From positions 1 to 14,311 of the forward strand of contig JAHWKH010000014.1 of the NCBI GenBank assembly GCA_019347995.1: a stretch of 14,311 nt of DNA, read 5' to 3'. A program made the translations under genes and the position numbers. This stretch comes from Gemmatimonadota bacterium (GTDB lineage Bacteria; Gemmatimonadota; Gemmatimonadetes; Longimicrobiales; UBA6960). The notes below the pieces were generated by a model, which saw only the letters and a program-made list of their open reading frames with translations, was not told the origin of the DNA and made no database searches. Shown here piece after piece: positions 490-14,311 of this stretch (position 1 is the stretch's first letter; each line of letters opens with the position of its first letter).

Positions 490-771
490 TCACTCCTCCT
501 GGAAGCCGCGGCCCACGAGATCGGTCAGGGCCTGCAGGGCGTCGGGGGCCTCCTCGCCCTCGCAGCGGATGGTGATGCGGCTGCCGCACTCGGCGGCGAG
601 CATGAGGACGCCCATGATGCTCTTTCCGTTCACCTGGAGGCCGTCCTTCTCGACCGCCACCTCACAGGGGTAGCGAGCCGCCAGCTTCACGAACTCGGCT
701 GCCGGGCGGGCGTGCAGCCCCGCGCGGTTCACGATCTCCACCGAGGTCTCCTGCGTCTGCGAGTCGCTCAT
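490..771 (-). CDS. ptsH: HPr, phosphocarrier protein of the PTS
   Basis: This 93-residue protein is the small cytoplasmic phosphocarrier between Enzyme I and the EIIA domains. The active-site motif NRAGLHARPA is present with the phosphorylatable His at residue 20 (His15 in E. coli numbering). The regulatory site NGKSIMGVLML carries Ser51, the equivalent of Ser46, which HPr kinase modifies, consistent with hprK in the same operon. Length and fold pattern match the family (85-95 residues). The ATG at 771 overlaps the EIID stop as ATGA; an in-frame ATG 9 nt further upstream would lie deeper inside EIID. The Enzyme I fragment follows after 1 nt. The protein itself looks intact and functional. Confidence 0.96.
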   Translation of the reverse strand: MSDSQTQETSVEIVNRAGLHARPAAEFVKLAARYPCEVAVEKDGLQVNGKSIMGVLMLAAECGSRITIRCEGEEAPDALQALTDLVGRGFQEE

Positions 772-1520
772 GCCACCCATCCGACGAGAGTGATGCCCGC
801 CACGGCACCCACGACCGCGAGAGCGGCGGGACGCCAGGCGCGAAGGCCCGCCAACAGCCCCAGCACGAAAGCCGCGCCGGCCAGGGCGGACCAGAATCCG
901 GGCAGCCCCCCGAGGCCGCCCATCCTCACGAGGAGCTCGCCCGACAGGAGTCCCAGCGCGACGCAGCCCACGCGGATGATGCGCTCGGCGTGGCGGCCCA
1001 GCGCCGCTTCGCGCAGCCGGCCCGCCACCTCCGTGCCTTCCCTCAGGCCGACATCGAAGCCCCAGAGCCGCAGGCCGAGATGGCCGACGTTGTAGAGCGC
1101 CAGGAACACCACCACGGCCACCCACGGCGGGGCGCCCACGGCCCACAGGACCAGACCCAGCAGCATCGTGGTGGGAAGCCACGCCGCCCACACCAGGTTG
1201 TCGCCCAGGCCGCCCAGGGGCCCCTTGATGGCGACCTTGAAGCGGCCCACGAGCGCCGGGTCGCTGCCGTCGGCTTCCAGCCGCGCCACGGCCCCCAGCG
1301 CGATCCCCGAGAGGTAGGGGTGGGTGTTGAAGTGCTCCACGTGCCGTGCCAGCGCCTTCTCCAGCTCCTGCCGATCGCGCCGCAGGCGACGCAGCACCGG
1401 GAGCAGCGCGAACGCGAAGCCTCCCCCCATCATCGTGTGGTAGTTCCAGGACCCCTGGATGGTGAAGGAGCGCAGGAACGCCGACCAGCGCGCGGCGCGG
1501 GGAACGGGAGCGCCGCTCAC
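768..1520 (-). CDS. PTS mannose-family transporter subunit IID
   Basis: This is the EIID membrane subunit (about 250 residues) of a mannose/fructose/sorbose-family PTS permease. The N-terminus has the family signature: a short amphipathic stretch then FTIQGSWNYHTMMGGGFAFALLP, comparable to the RSFxxQxSWNYExMQxxGFxxxxxP pattern of EIID. Further on it has the HxxxFNTHPYLSG segment and a GPLGGLGDNLVWAAWLP membrane-loop motif, followed by hydrophobic segments to the C-terminus. I chose the GTG at 1520, which overlaps the EIIC stop as GTGA and leaves the family N-terminus near the start; the open frame extends further but only inside EIIC. The protein is slightly shorter than the usual 270-280 residues. 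It works with EIIC in the inner membrane. Confidence 0.92.
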   Translation of the reverse strand: MSGAPVPRAARWSAFLRSFTIQGSWNYHTMMGGGFAFALLPVLRRLRRDRQELEKALARHVEHFNTHPYLSGIALGAVARLEADGSDPALVGRFKVAIKGPLGGLGDNLVWAAWLPTTMLLGLVLWAVGAPPWVAVVVFLALYNVGHLGLRLWGFDVGLREGTEVAGRLREAALGRHAERIIRVGCVALGLLSGELLVRMGGLGGLPGFWSALAGAAFVLGLLAGLRAWRPAALAVVGAVAGITLVGWVA

Positions 1521-2176
1521 AGGAGCCACGCTCCCAGGGCGCCCGCCGCCAGTCCGGCCGCGAACAGATCCCTTCGCCGCCGGAACCCGCCGAAGCCGCG
1601 CAGGAGGGCTCCCACCGAGACCGCCCCACCCACCAGCAGGAGGCCCAGGGTGTTCCCCGCGGCCAGGGGCCACGAGCTCGCCAGGGCCGCCACCACCAGC
1701 CTCCCTACCAGCACGCCCGACGCCGTCACGAGCATCCCACGCAGGAAGTCCAGGACGATGGCGCCGAGGTGACCCGCCACCACCCGCCCCGGGGTCACGG
1801 ACGTCCTCCCCGGATCGGGGGCGAGGCGGACGCTGAAGGTACGCAGGCCACTGATCGTCAGCCCGCCGATATGGCCCCAGACCAGGCCCACCGCCACGCC
1901 CAGGGCCAGGGCTCCGGGAAGGTCGCCTGCCGCCGCCGATCCCACCGCCACCACCGTGGCGGTGGCGCCCTCGGGGAAGCGCGCGCCACCCACGGGGAGC
2001 GACACCAGCAGGTAGATCTCCAGGATCGCTCCGACCAGGGCGCCCGTCATGGGATCGCCCACCACCCAGCCCGCCAACAGCCCAACCACGAGCGGCCTGG
2101 AGACCATGAACTGGCCCACGGACGTCTCGTCGAGGGCCAGGAGCCCGCCCACGAATGAGAGGGGCAGGAGACTCAC
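1517..2176 (-). CDS. PTS mannose-family transporter subunit IIC
   Basis: This is the 219-residue, highly hydrophobic EIIC subunit that forms the sugar channel with EIID. Visible features include an N-terminal membrane segment (LSFVGGLLALDETSVGQF), the conserved SRPLVVGLLAGWVVGDP and GALVGAILEIYLL stretches and the GGARFPEGATATVVA loop, all typical of the mannose/sorbose EIIC family. The start chosen is the GTG at 2176, which overlaps the EIIB stop as GTGA. Upstream in-frame codons lie inside EIIB and encode an arginine-rich shadow. The length is somewhat short compared with about 250-265 for E. coli ManY, with the shortfall toward the C-terminal half. The substrate cannot be read from the sequence. 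Confidence 0.9.
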   Translation of the reverse strand: MSLLPLSFVGGLLALDETSVGQFMVSRPLVVGLLAGWVVGDPMTGALVGAILEIYLLVSLPVGGARFPEGATATVVAVGSAAAGDLPGALALGVAVGLVWGHIGGLTISGLRTFSVRLAPDPGRTSVTPGRVVAGHLGAIVLDFLRGMLVTASGVLVGRLVVAALASSWPLAAGNTLGLLLVGGAVSVGALLRGFGGFRRRRDLFAAGLAAGALGAWLL

Positions 2177-2655
2177 CGGTCCACCAGGTCCTCGAGATGC
2201 ACCTTGTGCGAGCCCGGAAGGTCGCGTGCGCTGACGTCCGCTCCCTCCTCGGCCAGCTCGCGCACGCGCTCCCGGTCGGCTTCGTTCAGGTAGAGATAGG
2301 GCAGCACCGCCACGCGGCCCGGGGCGTGGTGGATGCCCCCGAGGTTGACCTTCTCTCCCCGCAGGCGTCCCTCTCGCGCCAGTCGCACCATGGTGCCGAG
2401 ATCGCGGGTCAGGAGCACGCTCCTCACCGGGTCCTGGCGCCACGTCTCCAGCTGCTCCCGCGCCTGCTCCACGGTGAGGAACTCGGCCACCGATCCGTCG
2501 GCCAGCCCCAGGCGGTAGAGCTCCTGCTCCCAGCCGCTCTCCGCGAGCTGGTCGTCGACGACGAGGTAGCGCCGCGGACGGAGCTGGCTTCCCCACCCCA
2601 GCACCACCTGCCCGTGGATGAGGCGCTCGTCGACCCGGTACAGGACGATGGGCAT
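2173..2655 (-). CDS. PTS mannose-family subunit IIB
   Basis: This 160-residue cytoplasmic EIIB protein receives phosphate from EIIA and passes it to the sugar. The family's N-terminal motif is clear: RVDERLIHGQVVLGWG with the phosphorylated His at residue 14. Downstream the Rossmann-like alternation continues, with RPRRYLVVDDQLA, SVLLTRDLGTMVRLAREG and VNLGGIHHAPGR, the last corresponding to the conserved 'lNiGgih' loop. The length matches the family (about 155-165). The ATG at 2655 is the natural start and is separated from EIIA by 27 nt. The stop overlaps the EIIC GTG, indicating translational coupling. Confidence 0.95.
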   Translation of the reverse strand: MPIVLYRVDERLIHGQVVLGWGSQLRPRRYLVVDDQLAESGWEQELYRLGLADGSVAEFLTVEQAREQLETWRQDPVRSVLLTRDLGTMVRLAREGRLRGEKVNLGGIHHAPGRVAVLPYLYLNEADRERVRELAEEGADVSARDLPGSHKVHLEDLVDR

Positions 2656-2682
2656 CGCCTCAGCCTCCGGCCGCCGGACGGC

Positions 2683-3090
2683 TCAAGGAGCCTCCGAGGG
2701 TGCAGGAAGGGCCTGGATGCCCTTCCTGCCCGACTCGACCAGCCGCACCACGAGCGCGTCCAGGGGCATCTCGCGGTTGAAGACGAAGTCCAGCAGCATG
2801 GGCAGGTTCGCGCCGCACACCACGGCGCGGGGAGCGCGCCCCCTGCACGAGAGGCGCGCCGCCATGGCGCAGCTCCCCGACTGGAGGTCCGTGAAGATCA
2901 CCGCCGGGGCGTCGCCCGCCAGACGGTCGAGCTCGTCCATCAGGCTCTCCGGCCCGCGTCCCTCGTTGGAGAGGGGCACCAGGGCTTCCTCCGGGGTCCC
3001 GGCGATGGTGCGGACCGCGTCCACCATGCCCTCGGCCATGCGCCCGTGGGTGAAGACGATGCCGCGCACGGCGGCCACCGGCTCACTCAT
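2683..3090 (-). CDS. PTS mannose-family subunit IIA
   Basis: This 135-residue cytoplasmic EIIA domain protein accepts phosphate from HPr. The active-site region GIVFTHGRMAEGMVDAV puts the phosphorylatable His at residue 15. The second conserved strand, AVIFTDLQSGSC, matches the 'DLxGGSP' region with small changes, and VVCGANLPMLLDFV matches the conserved 'vsGvNLPMLle' segment. It is a stand-alone EIIA rather than the EIIAB fusion of E. coli ManX, like those found next to hprK in many non-Firmicutes genomes. The ATG at 3090 overlaps the end of hprK by 8 nt, so the two are probably co-translated. Confidence 0.94.
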   Translation of the reverse strand: MSEPVAAVRGIVFTHGRMAEGMVDAVRTIAGTPEEALVPLSNEGRGPESLMDELDRLAGDAPAVIFTDLQSGSCAMAARLSCRGRAPRAVVCGANLPMLLDFVFNREMPLDALVVRLVESGRKGIQALPAPSEAP

Positions 3091-4060
3091 AATCCTGCTC
3101 CAGGTACTCCCGGACCGGACGCATGGCGTCCTGCAGATGCTGGTCGAAGGCCTGGGCGGCGTTCACCCCCGAATAGCGGAGGAGGTGGTTCATGGCCAGG
3201 ACCTCGGAGATCACCGTGATGTTCTTTCCCGGGTTCAACGGCACCGTGACGCGGGGCAGCGTCACGCCGAGGATCGTGGTGTCGTCCTCCTCGAGCCCCG
3301 TGCGGCTGTAGTCCCGGGTGTTGTCCCAGTGCTCCAGGTGGACCACCACCTCCATCCGCTTCTGCTGGCGGATCGCCCGGATGCCGAACAGCGCGCGGAT
3401 GTCGATGATGCCCACGCCGCGGATCTCCATGTGGTGGCGCTGCAGCTCGTGGCCCTGCCCGATGAGGATGTCGATGCCCCGGCGCGTGCACATGACCAGG
3501 TTGTCGGCCACGAGCCGATGGCCGCGCTCCACGAGATCGAGCACGCACTCGCTCTTCCCCACCCCGCTCTTCCCCACGAAGAGGAGCCCCACGCCGTACA
3601 CGTCGGCCAGCGATCCGTGCAGGGTCGTGAACGGGGCCAGCGCGGCCTCCAGGAAGGGCTTGATGCGGTGGTAGAAGTCCCGCGTGGTGAGGTCGCTGCG
3701 GATGACGGGGATGCCCGCCTCCCGCGCGACCTCCACGAAGTAGGGCGGCACGGCCTGGCCTTTGGTGACGAAGACCACGGGGATGTCGAATGCGAACAGG
3801 GCCTCGAGACAGCGACGTCCCTCGTCCCCACCCAGCGCGTCCAGGTAGGTCATCTCGGTCTCGCCGAAGACCTGCGGGCGGTCCTCGGCGAAGCGCTTCG
3901 TGTAGCCCGCCAGCGCGAGGCCCGGGCTGGAGATGTCGGGGTCGGCGATACGCCGATCGAGCCCGTCCTCGGCCGTGAGAGGCTCCAGGGCGAGCGATGC
4001 GCGCTTGGCGTCGAGGAGGTCCCGCACGGTGAGAGGCTTCCGACGACCCTCTTCGCTCAC
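3083..4060 (-). CDS. hprK: HPr kinase/phosphorylase
   Basis: This bifunctional enzyme phosphorylates and dephosphorylates HPr on its regulatory Ser. With the GTG start at 4060 it has 325 residues, the family norm. The N-terminal domain opens with LTVRDLLDAKRASLALEPL. The catalytic domain shows the LHGSLADVYGVG strand (His at about 148), the P-loop GKSGVGKS (163-170) and the HPrK signature EIRGVGIIDIRALFG (about 212-226). The usual VADD after the P-loop reads VADN here (about 184-187), a substitution at a highly conserved acidic position. I prefer GTG 4060 because it overlaps the hpf-remnant stop as GTGA and has GGAG 7 nt upstream; an ATG at 4081 would add seven residues. EIIA follows with an 8 nt overlap, so the kinase, its HPr target and the EII proteins share an operon. 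Confidence 0.94.
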   Translation of the reverse strand: MSEEGRRKPLTVRDLLDAKRASLALEPLTAEDGLDRRIADPDISSPGLALAGYTKRFAEDRPQVFGETEMTYLDALGGDEGRRCLEALFAFDIPVVFVTKGQAVPPYFVEVAREAGIPVIRSDLTTRDFYHRIKPFLEAALAPFTTLHGSLADVYGVGLLFVGKSGVGKSECVLDLVERGHRLVADNLVMCTRRGIDILIGQGHELQRHHMEIRGVGIIDIRALFGIRAIRQQKRMEVVVHLEHWDNTRDYSRTGLEEDDTTILGVTLPRVTVPLNPGKNITVISEVLAMNHLLRYSGVNAAQAFDQHLQDAMRPVREYLEQDYE

Positions 4061-4146
4061 GAACCGGCTCCGGACATCCATGTCCCGGCCCGGCCGCGGA
4101 TGGGAGGGGGGACGTCGACGTGGTGGGTGACGATCTGGATGCGCAT
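4057..4146 (-). pseudogene. hpf: Remnant of a ribosome hibernation factor gene (hpf/raiA)
   Basis: An ATG at 4146 with a good ribosome-binding site (GGAG, 5 nt spacing) opens a 29-codon frame beginning MRIQIVTHHVDVPPPIRGRA, which resembles the first strand and helix of HPF/RaiA proteins (pattern: MxIxITxRHVEVxxxLRxxxxxK). The rest of the domain is missing; after about 21 residues the frame reads TWMSGAGS and stops. That stop overlaps the GTG of hprK as GTGA. Full-length members have about 95-190 residues. hpf directly upstream of hprK is a familiar order in several phyla, which supports the identification. The likely history is an internal deletion that kept both the start and the stop-coupling to hprK. 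A genuine 29-residue peptide cannot be excluded. Confidence 0.5.
4068..4071 (-). promoter_or_regulatory. Ribosome-binding site deciding the hprK start
   Basis: GGAG (minus strand) lies 7 nt before the GTG at 4060. It falls inside the hpf-remnant frame and supports GTG 4060 over ATG 4081 as the hprK start. Confidence 0.5.
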
Positions 4147-4198
4147 CGATTCTCCGGTGGAGCGACCCCGCACGCGCGGGCGACCCGGGCGACGGAAG

Positions 4199-5359
4199 CT
4201 AATCGGGGCCGGAAGCGGCCACCACCCGGGTACGGAGCACCTCCAGGACCCGCCGGGCCGCGGTGTCCCACGAGAAGCCTTCGGCGAACGCCCTCGCCCG
4301 CCGCCCCATCGCGTCGCGTGCCGCCGGATCGGTGAGGAGGGTCTCGATCCGGTCGGCCAGGAGGTCCACGTCTCCGTGGGGCACCAGGAATCCGGTCTCG
4401 CCGTCCACCACCGAGTCGCGCAGCCCCGGTGCGTCGCTCGCGACGGTGGCGGTGCCGCAGGCCGCCGCCTCGAGGTTGGCGATGCCCCAGCCCTCCTTGG
4501 GGGAGGTGAGGACGTGGATCCAGCTACGGCGAAAGAGCTCCAGCTTCTCGTCCTCCTCCACGAATCCGCGGAAGCTCACGCGCCCGCCGAGTCCCAGCCG
4601 GTGAACGAGGCGCTCCAGGTCGGGCCGGTGGTCGCCCTTGCCGGCGATCACCAGCCGCCCGTCCACGCGCCGCTCCCGCAGGCGGGCCATGGCCAGGATC
4701 GGCAGGTCCACCCGTTTGTATTTCTTGAGCCGGCCCAGGTAGAGGAGCGTCGGTACCTCGAAGCGCTCCTCTCCCGGCGTGTAGTGGGCGGTGTCGACGC
4801 CGTTGGGAATGACGGCGATGCGGGAGCGCTCGACGCCCCGCTCCTCCAGGTCTTCGGCGGTGCTCCGTGACACGGCGATCACGGGAGAGCCCCGGAAGAC
4901 CCGCGGCACGGGCCGCTCCAGCAGCCACGTCAGGGCCGCCACCGGGACGCTGGCTTCGTGGAACGCGGTGGAGCCGAAAAGGTGGTGGACCAGGAGGACG
5001 GTCGGGGGGCCGCCCCACGTGGGCGTGAAGAGCGGGATCTTGTTGAGGTCCTCCACGACGACGTCGAAGCCTGCGTCCGCCAGGTGGCGTCGGAAGTAGC
5101 GCCGGGCCCGGAATGCGAAGGAGTGGCGCCCGCCGGCCCGGTGGACGTCCATGCCGTCGAGGCGGGTCCGGGGCGCGCTCCCCGGGAATCCGGAGCACAG
5201 GATCGACACCTCGTGCCCCCAGCCGGCCATGCGGCCGAAGACCTCGTGGAGATGCGCCTCGGCCCCACCGGCCTGGGGATTCTCCCGGTCCAGCCAGTTC
5301 ACCACCAGGATCCGCAGCGGCCCCTCGCCCTCCCGGGCGCTAGCCGACGACGGGTGCAC
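4199..5359 (-). CDS. Glycosyltransferase family 4 (GT-B) protein
   Basis: This 386-residue soluble glycosyltransferase has the GT-B two-domain layout. The N-terminal domain begins ILVVNWLDRENPQAGGAE (about 17-34), the glycine-rich acceptor-side loop of GT4 enzymes. The nucleotide-sugar domain contains VIPNGVDTAHY (183-193), LLYLGRLKKYKRVD (205-218) and the EX7E-type region PKEGWGIANLEAAACG (287-302), with Glu289 and Glu297 in the expected places, followed by GLRDSVVDGETGFLV. It probably transfers a sugar from an NDP-sugar to a lipid or polysaccharide precursor; donor and acceptor cannot be inferred. The GTG at 5359 overlaps the end of nusB by 20 nt. There are no clear membrane segments. Its position between nusB and the PTS genes looks like operon filling rather than a functional link. 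Confidence 0.88.
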   Translation of the reverse strand: MHPSSASAREGEGPLRILVVNWLDRENPQAGGAEAHLHEVFGRMAGWGHEVSILCSGFPGSAPRTRLDGMDVHRAGGRHSFAFRARRYFRRHLADAGFDVVVEDLNKIPLFTPTWGGPPTVLLVHHLFGSTAFHEASVPVAALTWLLERPVPRVFRGSPVIAVSRSTAEDLEERGVERSRIAVIPNGVDTAHYTPGEERFEVPTLLYLGRLKKYKRVDLPILAMARLRERRVDGRLVIAGKGDHRPDLERLVHRLGLGGRVSFRGFVEEDEKLELFRRSWIHVLTSPKEGWGIANLEAAACGTATVASDAPGLRDSVVDGETGFLVPHGDVDLLADRIETLLTDPAARDAMGRRARAFAEGFSWDTAARRVLEVLRTRVVAASGPD

Positions 5360-5792
5360 GCTTGTAGATCGCGTCCAGAACCCCGTTCACGAAGCGCGGC
5401 GATTCGTCGCCGCCGTACTGCTCCGCCAGCCGGATGCCTTCCCGGATGGAGACCTTGGGCGGGACATCGTCGAAGAAGAGCATCTCGGCGGCGGCGAGGC
5501 GGAGCGCGCCCCGGTCCACGTGGGAGACGCGCTCCAGGCGCCAGTTGTCCAGGGCCGCCTCCAGGGCGCGGTCCACCTCGGGAAGGTGGTCGTCCAGCGC
5601 CTCGAGGAGCCGCCGCACGTACGGGATCCGGGCCGGTGCGATGCGTCGGGTGGCCATGGTCTCGACGAGCGCGTCGCGCAGCGTGCCCGGGCGGCCGCCC
5701 GATTCCCACCGGTAGTGGATCTGCAGGGCCCAGCTGCGGGCGCGGCTGCGGTCGATACGCTCCCGCCGCGCCAGGGGGGCGTCCTGGCTCAC
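5340..5792 (-). CDS. nusB: Transcription antitermination factor NusB
   Basis: This 150-residue protein is an all-helical RNA-binding factor that partners with ribosomal protein S10 in rRNA antitermination. An Arg-rich N-terminus (ARRERIDRSRARSWALQIHY) corresponds to the BoxA RNA-binding helix, and the C-terminal signature VSIREGIRLAEQYGGDES followed by RFVNGVLDAI is nearly canonical. The length is typical (130-160). The start is the GTG at 5792, overlapping the ribH stop as GTGA. ribH-nusB is one of the most conserved gene neighbourhoods in bacteria, which confirms both calls. Confidence 0.95.
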   Translation of the reverse strand: MSQDAPLARRERIDRSRARSWALQIHYRWESGGRPGTLRDALVETMATRRIAPARIPYVRRLLEALDDHLPEVDRALEAALDNWRLERVSHVDRGALRLAAAEMLFFDDVPPKVSIREGIRLAEQYGGDESPRFVNGVLDAIYKRAPVVG

Positions 5793-6289
5793 GGGCGCCC
5801 CGCGCGCACCGGCGGCCGCAGGCGGTCGAACAGCTCTGCCATCTCCAGGGCCGCCAGCGCCACCTCCCGGCCCTTGTCGCCCCGGTCCGGGTCGGCGCGC
5901 TCGACCGCCTGGGCGTCGGTTTCCGTGGTGAGGACGCCGAAGACCACGGGCAGGTCGTGGTCCAGGGCGACCCGCCCCAGCCCCCGGGCCGTCTCGGCGG
6001 CGATGACGTCGAAATGAGGGGTCTCGCCCCGCACCAGACAGCCCAGGGCGAGCAGGGCGTCGTGGCCGGACCTCCGAGCCAGGCGGGCACAGGCCTGGGG
6101 CAGCTCCCACGCCCCGGGCACCCGGTGGACGTCCACGGTGCCGGCGCCGTGCTCCCGGAGGGTGGCCACGGCGCGCTCCAGAAGGACCTCGGTCACGTGG
6201 CCGTTGAAGCGCGAAGCCACCACGGCGAAGCGGCGGCCCACGCCGCTCACGCGGCCAGCGAGGGCGGAGGCGTACGACGCGTCGCTCAA
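5789..6289 (-). CDS. ribH: 6,7-dimethyl-8-ribityllumazine synthase
   Basis: This enzyme condenses 5-amino-6-ribitylaminouracil with 3,4-dihydroxy-2-butanone 4-phosphate in riboflavin synthesis; family members usually form pentamers or 60-mers. It has 166 residues, with the conserved RFN (27-29), VPGAWELP (58-65), CLVRGETPHFDVI (84-96, catalytic His92) and GVLTTET with QAVERA (118-132). I chose the TTG at 6289 because it overlaps the preceding TGA (TTGA) and gives the expected short lead before RFAVVASRFN. A GTG about 48 nt further in is a possible alternative. Its substrate dihydroxybutanone phosphate is normally made by the RibB half of RibBA, which is missing from the hybrid gene just upstream. 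Confidence 0.94.
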   Translation of the reverse strand: MSDASYASALAGRVSGVGRRFAVVASRFNGHVTEVLLERAVATLREHGAGTVDVHRVPGAWELPQACARLARRSGHDALLALGCLVRGETPHFDVIAAETARGLGRVALDHDLPVVFGVLTTETDAQAVERADPDRGDKGREVALAALEMAELFDRLRPPVRAGRP

Positions 6290-6948
6290 AGAATATGACC
6301 CATCTTGAGGCGCTTCGTCTCCAGGTAGTCCGCGTTGAAGCGTCCCGGTCTCACCATGAGGGGCTCGCGGCCGGTGATCTCGAGGTCGTAGCCGTCCAGC
6401 CCCACCACCTTGCGGGGATTGTTCGTGAGGATGCGGATGGAGTGGAGCCCCAGGTCCAGGAGGATCTGGGCTCCGATGCCGTAGTCGCGCAGGTCGGGCT
6501 TGAAGCCCAGCGCCTCGTTGGCCTCCACGGTATCCTGGCCCCCGTCCTGGAGCTCGTACGCCCGGATCTTGTTGCCGAGGCCGATGCCCCGCCCCTCCTG
6601 CTTCAGATACACGATGGCTCCGGCGCCCTCCTGCTGGAGCCGCTCCATGGCGGTGGACAGCTGCTCGCCGCAGTCGCACCGCATGGACCCGAAGACGTCG
6701 CCGGTGAGGCACTCGGAGTGCATGCGCACCAGCACGTCGGGCTTGCCTTCGATGTCGCCCTTGACCAGCGCCACGTGCTCCCGGTCGTCCACCAGGCTCT
6801 GGTAGGCGATGACGCGGAAGTCGCCGAAGCGCGTCGGCAGCGTGGCCTCGGCGATGCGCTCGACGAGGCGCTCCTTGGTGAGGCGGTAGGCCACGAGCTG
6901 GGCCACGGTGATGAAGCGCAGCCCGTGTTTCTCGGCGAAGACCTCCAG
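6286..6948 (-). pseudogene. ribBA: Remaining part of RibBA: end of DHBP synthase domain plus full GTP cyclohydrolase II domain
   Basis: This entry marks the riboflavin part of the hybrid frame. GTP cyclohydrolase II opens the imidazole ring of GTP to start riboflavin synthesis. Its catalytic and zinc-binding motifs are intact here, and the domain is about the size of stand-alone RibA (about 200 residues), so it might be active if expressed separately. The DHBP synthase part retains only its last about 35 residues and none of its acidic metal-binding motif. ribBA directly before ribH and nusB is a standard order, so the parent gene belongs at this place. Confidence 0.8.
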
Positions 6949-7623
6949 CTCGGGGCGCCGCGCCATGATCTCCTCGAACATGGGGCCGACGCCCCCGTAG
7001 AGGTGGCCCGGGAGCCACAACCCCAGGGACCAGGCGATGACCATCATGAACATGCCCTGGAACGTGTTGGTCCAACCGATGGCGGTCACGCCGGAGCCCA
7101 ACACGTACCAGACGACGATGGCGTAGGCCACGGCGGCGCCCAGCCAGAGCGGCACGTGACCCTCGGTCACGGCCTCGATGACGATGCCGGCCCCGCGCAT
7201 CTGGACGGTCACATAGGGCACGAACGCCGCCACCGACAGCAGGGCGAGGAGGAGCGACAGCGAGCGGGACGGGAAGCGTCCGCGCAGGAGCTGGGCCTGG
7301 GTCACGTAGCCCTGGCGCCGGCCCACCTGCGCGACCTTCGGCCCCACCCAGTACCACGGCGCCACGCCCAGGACGCCGTAGCTCAGGATGTAGAAGGCCG
7401 CCGCGCCGCGGGAATAGGCCCATCCCGGCCCGCCCAGGAAGGCGAAGGCGCTGAAGACCGTGGCGCCCGTGACGAAGTACATGACCAGCAGGCCGAAGCT
7501 CCGGTCGCCGGCCACGTAGCCCGTGACGCTCTTCGAGCTCCTGCGGCCCGCTGCCAGGCCGATCGCCAGCGTGACGGCCAGGTAGCCCGCGATGACGACG
7601 GTGACCCACTGCCAGCGCTCCAC
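6286..7623 (-). CDS. Hybrid ORF: truncated sodium:solute symporter joined to GTP cyclohydrolase II (RibBA C-terminal half)
   Basis: This 445-codon frame changes family in the middle. Residues 1 to about 219 are the first six or so membrane helices of a sodium:solute symporter (SSS, LeuT fold), with the typical GYVAGDRSFG, FSAFAFLGGPGWAY and QMRGAGIVIEAVTEG segments and NTFQGMFMMVIAW at about 186-198. From about residue 220 the sequence is RibBA: the last piece of the RibB domain (EVFAEKHGLRFITVAQLVAY) and a complete GTP cyclohydrolase II domain with zinc ligands Cys305, Cys316 and Cys318 (SECLTGDVFGSMRCDCGE), EGRGIGLGNKIRAYELQD (343-360) and ILTNNPRKV. SSS proteins normally have about 450-500 residues and 13-14 helices, so half the transporter is gone, and the RibB active site is entirely absent. 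The junction falls in MARRPEL (220-226, about 6946-6966), a string plausible in both parents. The GTG start is 1 nt after the DUF3311 stop. Confidence 0.85.
   Translation of the reverse strand: MERWQWVTVVIAGYLAVTLAIGLAAGRRSSKSVTGYVAGDRSFGLLVMYFVTGATVFSAFAFLGGPGWAYSRGAAAFYILSYGVLGVAPWYWVGPKVAQVGRRQGYVTQAQLLRGRFPSRSLSLLLALLSVAAFVPYVTVQMRGAGIVIEAVTEGHVPLWLGAAVAYAIVVWYVLGSGVTAIGWTNTFQGMFMMVIAWSLGLWLPGHLYGGVGPMFEEIMARRPELEVFAEKHGLRFITVAQLVAYRLTKERLVERIAEATLPTRFGDFRVIAYQSLVDDREHVALVKGDIEGKPDVLVRMHSECLTGDVFGSMRCDCGEQLSTAMERLQQEGAGAIVYLKQEGRGIGLGNKIRAYELQDGGQDTVEANEALGFKPDLRDYGIGAQILLDLGLHSIRILTNNPRKVVGLDGYDLEITGREPLMVRPGRFNADYLETKRLKMGHIL
6967..7623 (-). pseudogene. Remaining part of a sodium:solute symporter (N-terminal half)
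   Basis: This entry marks the transporter part of the hybrid frame: about six hydrophobic segments (roughly residues 7-24, 45-63, 72-92, 124-142, 157-177 and 187-205) with SSS-family loops. It belongs with the DUF3311 gene immediately upstream, since DUF3311 proteins are commonly encoded directly before SSS transporters. The substrate is unknown. The second half of the LeuT fold is missing, so transport by this fragment is unlikely. Confidence 0.8.
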
Positions 7624-7624
7624 G

Positions 7625-7849
7625 TCAGCGCGAGCCCCGGTCGCGGCGGCGGCGCGTCTCGGCCCGGTCCAGCAGCCAGAGCACGGGCACCGCGCCGGCC
7701 ACCCAGGCGGCGATCCAGGCCATGACGAACGGCAGACCCAGCACCCGGGGCTCGACGCGGTTGAACGGGATCACGCCCGGCCACGTGACCGCCACCGCCA
7801 TGGCGATGAGGTACGCGGCGGCGAAGGCCCGGGCGGCTCGAACGCTCAT
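7625..7849 (-). CDS. Small DUF3311-type membrane protein
   Basis: This 74-residue protein has two predicted membrane helices (about residues 8-27 and 40-61) and an Arg-rich cytoplasmic tail ending RRRRDRG. Between the helices the segment RVEPRVLGLPFVMAW matches the characteristic 'P-x-x-x-GLPFxxxW' region of DUF3311 proteins. Members are usually encoded just before a sodium:solute symporter and may help assemble or tune it; their biochemical role is not established. Here the stop is followed after 1 nt by the symporter-type GTG at 7623, as expected. The ATG at 7849 lacks a strong ribosome-binding site. It lies 40 nt after the beta-lactamase-like gene. Confidence 0.8.
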   Translation of the reverse strand: MSVRAARAFAAAYLIAMAVAVTWPGVIPFNRVEPRVLGLPFVMAWIAAWVAGAVPVLWLLDRAETRRRRDRGSR

Positions 7850-7889
7850 GCCCGCCGCCCGCCCGGACGCGCGCACACCGGGGCCGTCC

Positions 7890-8837
7890 TCAAGGGGTTC
7901 CCCCCACCGTGTCGCCCCGCTCGCGGAGCAGGACGTCCAGCGGCACGCGGACGCCATGCTCGGTGGCGCGGGCGAGCTTCGAGAAGTAGCCCCACGCGGC
8001 CTCGGAGGAGGCCCGCACCAGGGCGCCGCCGTCACCGCCGTACGTGCTCATCACGGCGAGAGCATACGGGCGCCCCGGCAGCCCCACCAGGGCCCACACC
8101 GTGGTCACCCCCTCCACGCCACCGGGCTTGAACGCCACCGGGACGCCCGACGGGATCGGCGCCCCCACCGGTCCGCCCTTGGGGATCTCCAGGATGTCGC
8201 GCACCCGGGTGCACGCCGCCTCCGACAGGGGCAGGTCGCAGCGGTGGATGCGCGCCATGAGCATGGCCGCCTCCGCCGGCGTGGACAGGTTCTCCTCGCC
8301 GCGGGCCGAGGCGTCGGGCCGGATCATCTCCCGCTGGAGCCGTGTCGAGGGCGCCCCCAGGCGGTCCATGAGGGCGTTCACGGCGTCCATCCCGACCGTC
8401 CGGATCAGGACGTTGGTGGCCGTGTTGTCGCTCTCGGTGATCATGAGGACGGCCAGGTCCTCGAGGGAGAGGGCGGAGCCGCGCCGCGTGAGATGCTGGA
8501 GCACACCGCTGCCGCCCACGGCCACGTCGTCGGTGATCTCCACGCGCCGCAGGAGGATGTCCGGGTCGTCCTCGGCCCGCCGGAAGAGCTCCAGCAGAAT
8601 GGGGATCTTGATGGCGCTGCCCTGGGGGAACACCAGGTCCTGGTTGGCCCCGATGCGGCGGCCGTCCACCAGGTCCACGATCTGGATCCCGGCCACGCCG
8701 TCGAAGTCGTTGGCCAGGGAGTCCAGGCGCCCCTGGAGGTTCTCGGCCAGGATGTCCCGGTGCCGGTCCTGGGCGTGGAGTGGGCCGGCCGCGAGGAGGA
8801 TCATCATCGTGGGCAGGATCCAGCGGGTGGGGCGCAC
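7890..8837 (-). CDS. Secreted class A beta-lactamase-like serine hydrolase
   Basis: This 315-residue exported protein belongs to the class A beta-lactamase/serine hydrolase family. It has a signal peptide (WILPTMMILLAAGPLHA, cleavage probably before Gln23). Catalytic motifs are SAIK (Ser74, Lys77) and SDN (136-138), and a KPG (237-239) stands where most class A enzymes have KTG. Spacing to the LSTP segment (184-187) puts Glu170 where the deacylating Glu166 sits, but it is followed by MIRP rather than the usual PELN, and the omega loop continues with RGEEN. True antibiotic hydrolysis is therefore uncertain; it may be a broader peptidase-like family member. The start is the GTG at 8837, with AAGGAG 6 nt upstream; the longer frame to 8957 runs through the inverted-repeat region. 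It stands alone between the repeat and the transporter pair. Confidence 0.88.
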   Translation of the reverse strand: MRPTRWILPTMMILLAAGPLHAQDRHRDILAENLQGRLDSLANDFDGVAGIQIVDLVDGRRIGANQDLVFPQGSAIKIPILLELFRRAEDDPDILLRRVEITDDVAVGGSGVLQHLTRRGSALSLEDLAVLMITESDNTATNVLIRTVGMDAVNALMDRLGAPSTRLQREMIRPDASARGEENLSTPAEAAMLMARIHRCDLPLSEAACTRVRDILEIPKGGPVGAPIPSGVPVAFKPGGVEGVTTVWALVGLPGRPYALAVMSTYGGDGGALVRASSEAAWGYFSKLARATEHGVRVPLDVLLRERGDTVGGTP

Positions 8838-8843
8838 GGGGGG

Positions 8844-8851
8844 CTCCTTCC
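8844..8851 (-). promoter_or_regulatory. Strong ribosome-binding site fixing the beta-lactamase-like start
   Basis: GGAAGGAG (minus strand) lies 6 nt before the GTG at 8837 and directly precedes a signal peptide. It decides against the in-frame ATG at 8957. Confidence 0.75.
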
Positions 8852-8878
8852 GGGTGTGGGTGGGACCGATGAACGGCT

Positions 8879-9057
8879 TACCGCAACTGGGAGGGTGGGA
8901 GGAGACGCGGAGGTGCCGGAGATCGGCCGGCAGATACAGGTTTCGTTTCTTCCTCATTCCTTCGCGTACGTTACCGCGCCCCGGAGCTCAGGCCAGCTCC
9001 TCCCACGCGAAAGGACCTCCGGCACCTCCGCGCTCCTCCCGATCTCCCGTTGCGGTA
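8879..9057. repeat. Long nested imperfect inverted repeat (179 nt)
   Basis: The outer arms are 8879-8923 and 9014-9057. Read as complements they share TACCGCAAC, GGGAGGAG and the 16 nt core CGCGGAGGTGCCGGAG (8906-8921 against 9017-9032), about 40 of 47 aligned positions. Inside is a second pair, CCTTCGCGT (8959-8967) and ACGCGAAAGG (9005-9014, one bulge), and at the apex GGAGCT (8983-8988) and AGCTCC (8995-9000) around a 6 nt loop. The whole can fold as one long branched hairpin in RNA or as a cruciform. It lies 30 nt after the crotonase stop and 41 nt before the beta-lactamase-like start. It has no U-run, so it is not a classical terminator; a MITE-like element, REP-type palindrome or structured RNA are possibilities. 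Confidence 0.75.
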
Positions 9058-9086
9058 CGTAGTCCGCGTTGTAGTTACACCCGACC

Positions 9087-9866
9087 CTACCGCCCGCGAA
9101 ACTCCGGGTCCCTCTTCTCCACGAAGGCCCGCACGCCCTCGCGGCCGTCCTCGCTGGCGAAGGCGGCCAGGAAGAGCTCCTTCTCCAGCTCCAGGCCCGC
9201 CGACAAGGGCGTCTCCATGGCGGCGCGGACCGACTGCTTGATGAGACGCAGCGACACCGGGCTCCAGCGGGCCATGCGGTGGGCCAGCTTGACGGCCTGC
9301 TCCACGTGCTGGCCCTCGTCGACCAGGAGCTCCACCAGGCCGATGCGGTGGGCCTCCTCGGCGTCGATCATGTCGCCGGTCAAGGCGATCCGGAGCGCCT
9401 GCCCGGGACCCACCAGGCGCGCCAGGCGCTGCGTGCCGCCGGCGCCGGGAATGAGGCCGATGCGGATCTCGGCCTGGCTGAATCGGGCCGTGCGGTCGGC
9501 GACGCGCACGTCGCACGCAAGGGCCAGCTCCGAGCCGCCGCCCAGGCAGTCGCCGTGCACGGCGCACAGGATCGGCTTGGGAAAGGCGGCGACCGCGTCG
9601 TACATCCGCCGGCGCTGATAGACCTCGCGCTGCTCCCAGGGCTCGCGGCCCGCGAACTCGGTCACGTCGGCGCCGGCCACGAACGCCTTCTCGCCGGCGC
9701 CGTGCAGGACGGCGGCCTTCACCGTCTCGTCGCCGGCCAGCGCGTCCACGAGCTCCATGAGGCGCTGGCGGACGGACTCGTTGAGGGCGTTGAGCTTGTC
9801 GGGGCGGTTGAGGGTGAGGACGGCCACGGGGCCGTCCTTCTCGAGCAGGATGGGGTCGTCGCTCAT
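9087..9866 (-). CDS. Enoyl-CoA hydratase (crotonase family)
   Basis: This 259-residue cytoplasmic enzyme probably hydrates trans-2-enoyl-CoA to 3-hydroxyacyl-CoA. Both catalytic glutamates of true hydratases are in place: Glu113 in HGDCLGGGSELALACD and Glu133 in FSQAEIRIGLIPGAGGTQRL. The oxyanion-hole segment AFVAGADVTEF is at 61-71. This argues for real hydratase activity rather than only isomerase activity. The length is typical (about 255-265). The ATG at 9866 is 55 nt after the dehydrogenase stop, with a small hairpin between them and only a weak ribosome-binding site. Following a 3-hydroxyacyl-CoA dehydrogenase and a 3-oxoadipyl-CoA-type thiolase, it would supply the hydration step, comparable to PaaF in phenylacetate catabolism. 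Confidence 0.93.
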   Translation of the reverse strand: MSDDPILLEKDGPVAVLTLNRPDKLNALNESVRQRLMELVDALAGDETVKAAVLHGAGEKAFVAGADVTEFAGREPWEQREVYQRRRMYDAVAAFPKPILCAVHGDCLGGGSELALACDVRVADRTARFSQAEIRIGLIPGAGGTQRLARLVGPGQALRIALTGDMIDAEEAHRIGLVELLVDEGQHVEQAVKLAHRMARWSPVSLRLIKQSVRAAMETPLSAGLELEKELFLAAFASEDGREGVRAFVEKRDPEFRGR

Positions 9867-9897
9867 GGTCCCGGGGGCGTGGTGAGGCGTGGAAGGG

Positions 9898-9918
9898 GGA
9901 GCCGACGGCGTCGGCTCC
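9898..9918 (-). other. Perfect 9-bp hairpin between dehydrogenase and crotonase genes
   Basis: GGAGCCGAC and GTCGGCTCC flank a 3 nt loop, starting 3 nt after the dehydrogenase stop. No T-run follows on the minus strand (it continues CCCCTTCC), so it may be an mRNA-stabilising or pausing hairpin or a weak Rho-assisted terminator. Confidence 0.5.
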
Positions 9919-9921
9919 GGC

Positions 9922-10791
9922 TCATTCGCTCCAGTCGTAGAAGCCCTGTCCCGCCTTCTTGCCGGTCTTCCCGTCGGCCACCATTCGGCGCAGGATCGCG
10001 GGTGGGCGGAAGGCGTCGGAGCCCAGCGTCTCGTGCAGGTATTCGGCGATACCGAGGCGCACGTCGAGGCCCACCAGGTCGGTGAGCTTCAGCGGACCCA
10101 TGGGGTGGCGGTAGCCCAGCTCCATGGCCCGGTCGATGGCCTCGGGCTCCGCGACACCCTCCTCCACCATGCGCATGGCCTCCAGGCCCAGCACGACGCC
10201 GAGCCGCGAGGACGCGAAGCCGGGCGAGTCCTTCACCACCACGGGCTCCTTGCCCAGGCGGCGGACGAAGGCGAGGGCCGACTCCATCGTCGCCTCCGAC
10301 GTCGCGGGGCCCCGTACCACCTCCACCAGCGCCATGATGTGGACGGGGTTGAAGAAGTGCAGACCCAGGAAGCGCTCGGGCCGGTCGAGGGCTTCGGCGA
10401 TGGCGGCGATGGACAGGGACGAGGTGTTGGTGGCCAGGAGGGAGCCTTCGGGCGCCGCGGCCTCCACCCGTGCGAAGATGTCGCGCTTGAGCTCCAGCTT
10501 CTCGGGCGCCGCTTCCACGACCAGGTCGGCGCCGGCCACCGCGTCCTCGAGGTCGGCCGAGGTCGTGAGGTTCTCCAGCGTCTCTTCGCGCTCCGGGCCG
10601 GTCACCTTCCCGAGCCGCACTCCCTTGTCGAGGTTGGCGGCGACCCGCGCCCGGGCCCGCTCCAGCGCCGCGGCGTCGATGTCGAAGAGCGTGACCCGGT
10701 GTCCCGAGGCCGCGGCCACCTGGGCGATGCCGTGCCCCATGGTGCCGGCGCCCAGGACCGTCACGGTGGAGGTGGTGGACGGGGAGTCCAC
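9922..10791 (-). CDS. 3-hydroxyacyl-CoA dehydrogenase (3-hydroxybutyryl/3-hydroxyadipyl-CoA type)
   Basis: This 289-residue NAD-dependent enzyme oxidises a (3S)-hydroxyacyl-CoA to the 3-oxoacyl-CoA. The N-terminal Rossmann motif is VLGAGTMGHGIAQVAA (12-27), with Asp37 ending the second strand as expected for NAD. The catalytic pair is His145 and Glu157 in LHFFNPVHIMALVEVV, the same 12-residue spacing as characterised family members. The C-terminal dimerisation domain has SPGFASSRLG and ends in KKAGQGFYDWSE. The size matches stand-alone enzymes of the Hbd/PaaH kind. The GTG at 10791 is 1 nt after the thiolase stop, so translation is probably coupled. Whether the substrate is a C4 acyl group, a long chain or adipyl cannot be told from the sequence. 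Confidence 0.94.
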   Translation of the reverse strand: MDSPSTTSTVTVLGAGTMGHGIAQVAAASGHRVTLFDIDAAALERARARVAANLDKGVRLGKVTGPEREETLENLTTSADLEDAVAGADLVVEAAPEKLELKRDIFARVEAAAPEGSLLATNTSSLSIAAIAEALDRPERFLGLHFFNPVHIMALVEVVRGPATSEATMESALAFVRRLGKEPVVVKDSPGFASSRLGVVLGLEAMRMVEEGVAEPEAIDRAMELGYRHPMGPLKLTDLVGLDVRLGIAEYLHETLGSDAFRPPAILRRMVADGKTGKKAGQGFYDWSE

Positions 10792-10792
10792 G

Positions 10793-11992
<1,200 letters not shown>

Positions 11993-11997
11993 GGGAT

Positions 11998-12003
11998 CTC
12001 CCT
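11998..12003 (-). promoter_or_regulatory. Ribosome-binding site supporting a TTG start for the thiolase
   Basis: AGGGAG (minus strand) lies 5 nt before the TTG at 11992. No ATG or GTG near the conserved N-terminus competes. Confidence 0.6.
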
Positions 12004-12026
12004 GTACGGGTCGGAGGAGAGGGCAG

Positions 12027-13475
12027 TCAGTCCAGGGCCACCCAGACCGACTTGACCTGCGTGTACTTCTCCAGCGCGGCCTGCCAGCCAAGGTCGCGGC
12101 CGAAACCGCTCTGCTTGAAGCCGCCGAAGGGCGAGGCCGAATCGTAGCGGTTGTACGTGTTGATCCACACGGTGCCCGCCTGCAGCTCGGACGCGAAGCG
12201 GTGCGCCTTGCCGACGTCCCGGGTCCAGATGCCCGCCGCCAGCCCGTAGATGGTCCGGTTCGCCTTGTCGATGGCGTCGTCCAGGTCGTCGAAGGGCATG
12301 ACCGCGGCCACGGGCCCGAAGATCTCCTCGCGGGCGATGGTCATCTCGGGCTCCACGTCGGCGAAGACCGTCGCCGTGACGAAGTTCCCCCTGCCTTCGT
12401 GGGTGGCCCGCTCGCCTCCGGCGACCAGGCGGGCTCCCTCCTTCTTGCCGGCTTCCACGTAGCGCATCACCCGCTCGAGCTGCTCCTCGCTCACGATGGC
12501 GCCGAGTCGGGTGCCCTTGTCCATGGGGTCGCCAATGGTCATGCCGGCCGAGCGCTTGCCGAACTCCGTGACGAAGTCGTCGTAGACCGCACGCTCCACC
12601 AGCACCCGCGAGCCTGCGGCGCACACCTCGCCCTTGCCGTAGAAGATGCCGGTGGCGGCGCCGCGCACGGCCGCCTTCAGGTCGGCGTCGGCGAAGACGA
12701 TGTTGGCGCTCTTGCCCCCCAGCTCGAGCGAGACCTTCTTGAGCGTCTCGGCGGCCTCGCGCATGACCGTCTTGCCCACCTCGGTGGAGCCCGTGAAGGC
12801 GATGGCGTCCACGTCGGGGTGGCGCACCAGCGCCGCGCCCGCCGTCTCGCCGAAGCCCGGCACCACGTTCAGCACGCCCGGGGGGAGGCCCGCTTCGGCG
12901 GCCAGCTCCCCGAGCCGCAGCGCCGTGAGCGGTGTCTGCTCGGCGGGCTTCAGGACCACCACGTTCCCGCAGGCCAGGGCGGGGGCCACCTTCCAGGCCG
13001 CCAGCGAGAGGGGGAAGTTCCACGGGACGATGCAGCCCACCACCCCGATGGGCTCGCGCAGCGTGTAGTTGAGAAAGGGTCCGCTGACCGGGATGGTGTC
13101 GCCGTGGACCTTGTCGGCCATGCCCGCGAAGTAGCGGAAGTTCTCCACCACCGAGGGAAGGTCGACCTTCCGCGACTCGAAGTACGGCTTCCCGTTGTCC
13201 CTCGTCTCCAGGGCGCCCAGCTCGTCGGCATGGGCCTCGATGACGTCGGCCAGCTTCCACAGGAGCGCCGAGCGCTGGTGGGGGTCCATGCGCCGCCACT
13301 CGGGAAGCGCGCCGCGCGCCGAAGCCACGGCCCGCTCCACGTCGGCCTCGCTTCCCGCCGCCACCCGGGCGATGACCTCTCCGGTCGCGGGATTCTTCGT
13401 CTCGAAGGTCTCGCCCGACGCGGCGTCGCTCCACGCGTTGTCGATCCAGATCCCGCTGCCCACGGTCTCGCTCAC
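12027..13475 (-). CDS. NAD(P)-dependent aldehyde dehydrogenase
   Basis: This 482-residue enzyme of the ALDH superfamily oxidises an aldehyde to the acid. The expected residues are present: Asn153 in [14 protein letters not shown], the cofactor loop FTGSTEVGK (227-235), the general base Glu251 in [11 protein letters not shown], the catalytic Cys285 in EVCAAGSR and EEIFGPV toward the C-terminus. The overall pattern (betaine/phenylacetaldehyde/ALDH1-like) does not fix a substrate. In this neighbourhood phenylacetaldehyde or a pathway semialdehyde would fit, which is inference only. The start is the GTG at 13475, with GGAG 6 nt upstream. A strong terminator precedes it, so it probably has its own promoter in 13476-13571 and may be the first gene of the thiolase-dehydrogenase-crotonase operon. 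Confidence 0.93.
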
Positions 13476-13481
13476 GCCCCG

Positions 13482-13485
13482 CTCC
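13482..13485 (-). promoter_or_regulatory. Ribosome-binding site for the aldehyde dehydrogenase
   Basis: GGAG (minus strand) lies 6 nt before the GTG at 13475. It selects this start over in-frame upstream codons that run toward the terminator. Confidence 0.5.
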
Positions 13486-13571
13486 AGTCTGGATGGATCT
13501 CCTGCTTCGAACCCGGCGGAAGCGCCCACGCGCTCCCGCCCGCTCCCCGGCCGTGCCCCCGCGGCCCGACG

Positions 13572-13610
13572 AAAAGCGCGGCGGAGCCCGGCGATGCCGG
13601 ACCCCGCCGC
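13572..13610 (-). terminator. Intrinsic terminator after the partial crotonase gene
   Basis: On the minus strand, 13610-13596 and 13592-13578 form a 15-bp stem (two G-U pairs) closed by a 3 nt loop. GC and then a TTTT run (13575-13572) follow. The hairpin begins 16 nt after the crotonase stop. This is the clearest Rho-independent terminator in the window and separates the partial gene from the aldehyde dehydrogenase unit. Confidence 0.85.
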
Positions 13611-13626
13611 GGCGAGTGGTCCTCCG

Positions 13627-14311
13627 TCACTTCCCCGTGAAGGCCGCCTTGCGCTTCTCGACGTACGCCGCGATGCCCTCCTTGGCGTCCGCGCTGGCGA
13701 AGAGCTGCTGCTGGAGCTCGCGCTCCAGCGTGAGCGCCTGCTCGAAGGGCAGCCCCACGCCCGTCTGCACCGCGCGCTTGATGTTGCCCACCGCCTTGCT
13801 GGCCTTGTTGGGCGTGGTGAACTGCTTCGCGTACTCCAGCGCCTTGCCGAGGAAATCGTCACGGCTGTCGGCGTCGATGACCTGGTTCACCAGGTTCTTG
13901 TCGAGGCCTTCGTCGAACTCGAACACGTCACCCGTGGCCATCAGCTCGATGGCGTGGGACTTCCCGACGATGCGGCACAGGCGCTGGGTGCCCCCGGTAC
14001 CGGGAAGCACGCCCAGGTTCACCTCGGGCAGCCCGATCTTGCCCGCGCCCCTGCGTGCGATGCGCAGGTCGGCCGCCATGGCGATCTCGAGCCCTCCGCC
14101 CACCGTGTGCCCGTTGAGCGCGGCGATCACCAGCTTGGGCGTGTGCTCGAGCCGGTTGAGCGTCTCGTTGGCGTGGAGGCAGAAGTAGTACTTGAACGTC
14201 GGGTCCGCCTCGTTGAGCATGGAGATGTTGGCGCCGGCGCAGAAGAACTTCTCACCGGCGCCCGTGAGGACGATCACCTCCACGTCGGTGTCGAAGCGGG
14301 CGCGAACGATG
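13627..14311 (-). CDS. Enoyl-CoA hydratase/isomerase family protein (partial, runs off the right edge)
   Basis: This crotonase-fold protein has its first residues outside the window; 227 residues are visible and perhaps 30-45 are missing. The open frame continues to the window edge, so the GTG at 14283 is an internal Val, not the start. Visible motifs are the oxyanion segment FFCAGANISML, ALNGHTVGGGLEIAMAADL with the first catalytic Glu, and GKIGLPEVNLGVLPGTGGTQRL with the second, which favours hydratase activity. The C-terminus (AAYVEKRKAAFTGK) is canonical. It is only moderately similar to the second crotonase at 9087-9866, so it is not a recent duplicate. The gene ends in a strong terminator, so it closes a separate transcription unit. 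An isomerase role (as for PaaG) is possible. Confidence 0.9.
   Translation of the reverse strand, partial: IVRARFDTDVEVIVLTGAGEKFFCAGANISMLNEADPTFKYYFCLHANETLNRLEHTPKLVIAALNGHTVGGGLEIAMAADLRIARRGAGKIGLPEVNLGVLPGTGGTQRLCRIVGKSHAIELMATGDVFEFDEGLDKNLVNQVIDADSRDDFLGKALEYAKQFTTPNKASKAVGNIKRAVQTGVGLPFEQALTLERELQQQLFASADAKEGIAAYVEKRKAAFTGK

Follow-up and report, generated by a model that had tools for sequence, protein, structure and literature searches.

RibBA is a bifunctional protein in which a DHBP synthase domain (RibB, PF00926) is combined with GTP cyclohydrolase II (PF00925), and ribBA is normally required for riboflavin synthesis. Transporters of the sodium:solute symporter (SSS) type carry the SSF domain (PF00474) and are encoded next to a small DUF3311 partner. 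A literature search, in the portions of the papers that it brought up, yielded no paper on a fusion of such kind between a transporter and GTP cyclohydrolase II. According to the accessible part of a review, shared k-mers in an assembly graph can yield chimeric contigs (PMC7299287). In the window, i.e. the whole stretch of 14,311 nucleotides analyzed here, a single open frame begins as an SSS transporter and ends as RibBA. Our analysis indicates that the window is very probably a chimeric contig and the apparent fusion an assembly misjoin rather than a new protein, because the closest listed relatives of both parents have the same heptapeptide at the joint, the parents belong to separate conserved gene clusters in relatives, and no such fusion was found elsewhere among the matches listed.

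The open frame and the two gene clusters of the window

In agreement with the earlier note, which had described one uninterrupted frame made of an SSS half and a GTP cyclohydrolase II half, the minus-strand frame running from 7623 to 6286 has a GTG start and no internal stop (445 aa; Table 1). Pfam reported only part of the SSF domain (PF00474; aa 36-234, E 9.3e-16, profile positions 1-194 of 406), while the GTP cyclohydrolase II domain is complete (PF00925; aa 255-420, E 1.2e-74, profile positions 1-164 of 165). Likewise, the note had regarded a part of RibB as missing, and indeed Pfam gave no match to the DHBP synthase domain (PF00926) in the 445-aa product; the end part of this domain is present in the RibBA relative P0003. 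The product therefore possesses the GTP cyclohydrolase II of a bifunctional RibBA and lacks its DHBP synthase domain except for the last part, and it holds a fraction of the SSF domain that is intact in the transporters P0004 and P0006 (profile positions 1-406). The rest of RibB and the region upstream of it are absent from side B of the joint in the window. A simple hydropathy scan detected 4 peaks in the SSS part of the product, for which the earlier note had given about six helices, versus 10 in intact P0004. The protein database entry for the window's own product, P0002 (304 aa), begins at an internal methionine, residue 142.

All genes of the window lie on the minus strand and form two groups, side A with SSS and side B with ribBA, which have the same GC content (0.714 and 0.717). 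Where the window passes from one cluster to the other, it breaks off inside a gene of the first and resumes inside a gene of the second, and the outermost ECH gene of side A is cut by the window end. Downstream of the riboflavin-nusB cluster, positions 490-4081 hold hprK, a mannose-type PTS set (EIIA, EIIB, EIIC and EIID) and HPr. A gene of the beta-lactamase2 family (PF13354) is located at 7893-8957 beside DUF3311-SSS, as is also the case at two of the nine relative loci (L130 and L142).

Table 1. Positions of the features discussed, numbered from the first letter of the window.
Feature	Coordinates	Strand	Basis or remark
Open frame of 445 aa, very probably chimeric: SSS N-terminal half followed by the final portion of RibB and a complete GTP cyclohydrolase II	6286..7623	minus	
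SSS transporter, N-terminal part (aa 1-219)	6967..7623	minus	close intact relatives 503-504 aa
Joint, 21 nt coding MARRPEL	6946..6966	minus	protein alignments and DNA
RibBA, starting shortly before the DHBP synthase domain ends and including the whole GTP cyclohydrolase II	6286..6945	minus	
DUF3311 small protein, SSS partner	7628..7849	minus	Pfam; adjoins SSS in 9/9 relative loci
ribH	stop 5789, start near 6298	minus	PF00885
Side A, SSS cluster: ECH - ALDH - thiolase - 3-hydroxyacyl-CoA dehydrogenase - ECH - beta-lactamase2 - DUF3311	7628..14311	minus	
Side B, ribBA cluster: ribH - nusB - glycosyltransferase - hprK - EIIA - EIIB - EIIC - EIID - HPr	490..6298	minus	

The joint and the shared heptapeptide

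Protein alignments showed the 445-aa product to be collinear with SSS proteins up to residue 226 and with RibBA proteins from residue 220 onward. The two alignments overlap in residues 220-226, which read MARRPEL; residue 219 (I) fits SSS only, and residue 227 (E) fits RibBA only. At the position of the joint, the closest SSS protein among the matches listed (P0004, 96% identical over its half) reads EEIMARRPELLTLPG, and the closest listed RibBA (P0003, 93%) reads DGTMARRPELEVFA, so that MARRPEL is continued by LTLPG in P0004 and by EVFA in P0003. The mark expected of a chimera, a sequence common to both parents at the joint, was thus found in the closest listed relative of each. The heptapeptide is usual in RibBA, with M, A, R, R, P and L invariant in all nine aligned rows (the window included). 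Among the three intact SSS proteins aligned it occurs in P0004, the corresponding residues being AAERPEL in P0006 and AASRPEL in P0080, and the SSS proteins of eight relatives also differ from it; the residues in G173 are ATQRPEL. The 21-mer at the joint occurs once in the window, and the exact 21-mer was absent from all 166 other fetched loci. Judging from the protein of P0004, we infer that both parents would be identical at the DNA level at the joint in the window strain. Since the switch lies within 6946-6966 and the frame is the same in both genes, an in-frame product would require no selection. The earlier note had suspected an artefact with its breakpoint at these positions, which is in line with our data, but it overlooked the likely cause, namely the heptapeptide common to both parents.

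The abundance of such short repeats was estimated from 20 pieces of 20 kb taken from the relative G085, a scaffold in which 14 of the 20 pieces contained runs of N; seeds holding N and 18-mers with more than 5 occurrences were omitted. Between these pieces 19 N-free exact repeats of at least 21 nt were detected (a 20th, composed of 20 real bases and an N, was left out of the count), which extrapolates to roughly 2,000 per 4.1 Mb. Some of the repeats resemble shared protein motifs rather than chance matches. A genome of this kind thus contains many repeats of at least 21 nt that are shared by distant loci.

Parent loci in relatives and the search for the same fusion

Gene order was compared at nine locus pairs from nine genomes, with 8 to 20 kb per locus, on which the proteins of the window were placed. 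DUF3311 and the C-terminal part of SSS were present at all nine SSS loci, none of which contained ribBA within its 8 to 20 kb, and all nine RibBA loci carried the RibB part, ribH, nusB and the glycosyltransferase, again without SSS within the 8 to 20 kb inspected. These results bear out the assignment made in the earlier note, which had placed DUF3311 with the transporter and ribH-nusB with RibBA. The genes hprK, EIIA, EIIB, EIIC and EIID were found at eight of the nine RibBA loci and HPr at six, and the order of side B was kept after an intact ribBA at six of them (L129, L135, L137, L140, L144 and L146). ECH, ALDH, thiolase and dehydrogenase occurred at three of the nine SSS loci (L130, L139 and L145); the order of side A preceded an intact SSS gene at L130 (G173) and also at L139 (G008), there without a beta-lactamase match. 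In G173, each of the 18 window gene probes was recovered in the order of the window, with 8 on the first locus and 10 on the second; this genome also has ribD and ribE domains upstream of ribBA and an AraC-type regulator after the SSS gene.

Moreover, the two parents are distant from each other in relatives. In the five genomes in which both were listed on one contig, they are separated by about 164 kb to 2.2 Mb and lie in opposite orientation in four cases, i.e. in G173 (about 300 kb), G172 (219 kb), G117 (164 kb) and G085 (2.24 Mb), and on the same strand in G190 (1.96 Mb). The values for G085, G117 and G190 are contingent on scaffolding, as there are runs of N in these contigs (L131, L133 and L138), and the pieces read from G173 and G172 contained no N. 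Furthermore, the contigs given for the RibBA piece P0003 and the SSS protein P0006 (88%) have an identical length of 4,456,228 bp, so that relatives of both parents presumably exist as separate genes in a single genome. A second copy of GTP cyclohydrolase II, 43-44% identical, was observed in three of ten relatives (L099, L100 and the G003 match at C16), where the matching parts lie in open frames of 381-404 aa.

The same fusion was sought in genomes and in proteins. The genome searches covered 10 Gemmatimonadota reached through the loci, 298 genomes from the phylum, 288 of which had a match at 1e-60, and 121 genomes of one family, 110 of which had a match at 1e-105. No fusion was present among the matches listed from these 10 Gemmatimonadota, 298 phylum and 121 family genomes, each match corresponding to one half. 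A search with the whole protein scored 8000 candidates, and a search with the joint only, scored across aa 185-275, matched 1424 proteins; among the best 120 listed in each, the only protein spanning both halves was the window's own P0002. The next-widest coverage of the joint among the 120 listed was that of P0029 (79%), an ordinary RibBA. Candidates with slightly wider coverage (P0029 and P0073), as well as genome matches reaching further left (L014, L055 and L056), were rejected as fusions and proved to be ordinary RibBA. Neither independent genomes with the same succession of domains, which the earlier note had named as the sign of a real protein, nor other proteins sharing it were therefore encountered among the matches listed.

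Origin of the joint and comparison with known systems

The main rival to a chimeric contig is a real rearrangement in the window strain, in which recombination across a short identity would have joined both loci and broken both genes, by inversion if the loci lie opposite to each other as in four of the five relatives. The fused frame would then be a functionless by-product, and a reciprocal RibB-SSS joint would be located elsewhere. The shared heptapeptide would suit such recombination as well as misassembly, and the opposite orientation in four of the five same-contig pairs permits an inversion. However, the event would disrupt ribBA, an objection that is weakened by the second GTP cyclohydrolase II copy found in some relatives, and no second genome with the same joint appeared among the matches listed. 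On balance, we regard a rearrangement as improbable. It is even more doubtful that recombination at the heptapeptide produced a real in-frame fusion that is expressed, with GTP cyclohydrolase II behind half a symporter.

A local deletion between neighboring DUF3311-SSS and ribBA-ribH-nusB units would agree with the location of both window sides on the same strand, and the earlier note had taken this succession, with the intervening DNA lost, for the natural order. However, the two units were neighbors in none of the nine locus pairs, and since four of the five same-contig pairs have them in opposite orientation, a simple deletion cannot create the joint, which leaves this explanation with next to no probability. 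A real, selected fusion, in which a truncated transporter would tether GTP cyclohydrolase II to the membrane, is scarcely credible either, because the open frame and the complete GTP cyclohydrolase II domain are all that speaks for it, whereas the SSF domain is only half present, the same domain order was seen in no other protein among those listed, and the joint lies at a parent-shared sequence inside the RibB domain and not at a domain boundary.

A chimeric contig, in comparison, accounts for the uninterrupted frame, for the truncated gene on either side, for the location of the joint and for the absence of listed relatives with the fusion, and the join appears to have been made by assembly and not by the cell. 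The loci joined at about 21 identical bases encoding MARRPEL in the SSS gene and in ribBA would come from separate places in a single Gemmatimonadota-like genome or from two closely related genomes of the same sample, and, with the same frame at this heptapeptide in both genes, the misjoin would resemble an in-frame fusion. The organism should consequently carry an intact DUF3311-SSS gene as well as an intact ribD-ribE-ribBA-ribH-nusB cluster. Since the final k-mers of assemblers exceed 21, such a join would require a small k, low coverage or an origin in the library. Read as a misjoin, the window illustrates clearly how an in-frame "fusion" that withstands checks of its frame and domains can arise at a short coding repeat, and a useful test for fusion claims is to align the handful of residues at the joint with each intact parent.

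In summary, the window resembles known systems on either side of the joint and departs from them at it. Like Gemmatimonadota RibBA, the product aligns without gaps over aa 220-445 (93% to P0003), and ribH and nusB follow as they do at nine of nine RibBA loci of relatives; unlike RibBA, it has a transporter half in place of the DHBP synthase domain save for the last part of the latter. Similarly, aa 1-226 align with SSF transporters of 503-504 aa (96% to P0004), and DUF3311 is located upstream as at all nine relative loci with this partner, but the second half of the transporter is absent, the profile ending at position 194 of 406. Finally, as in chimeric contigs that arise from shared k-mers in metagenomes, the joint is found at a short sequence common to two loci; the joins treated in the accessible part of the review connect different species (PMC7299287), whereas the loci joined here would belong to one genome or to close relatives.
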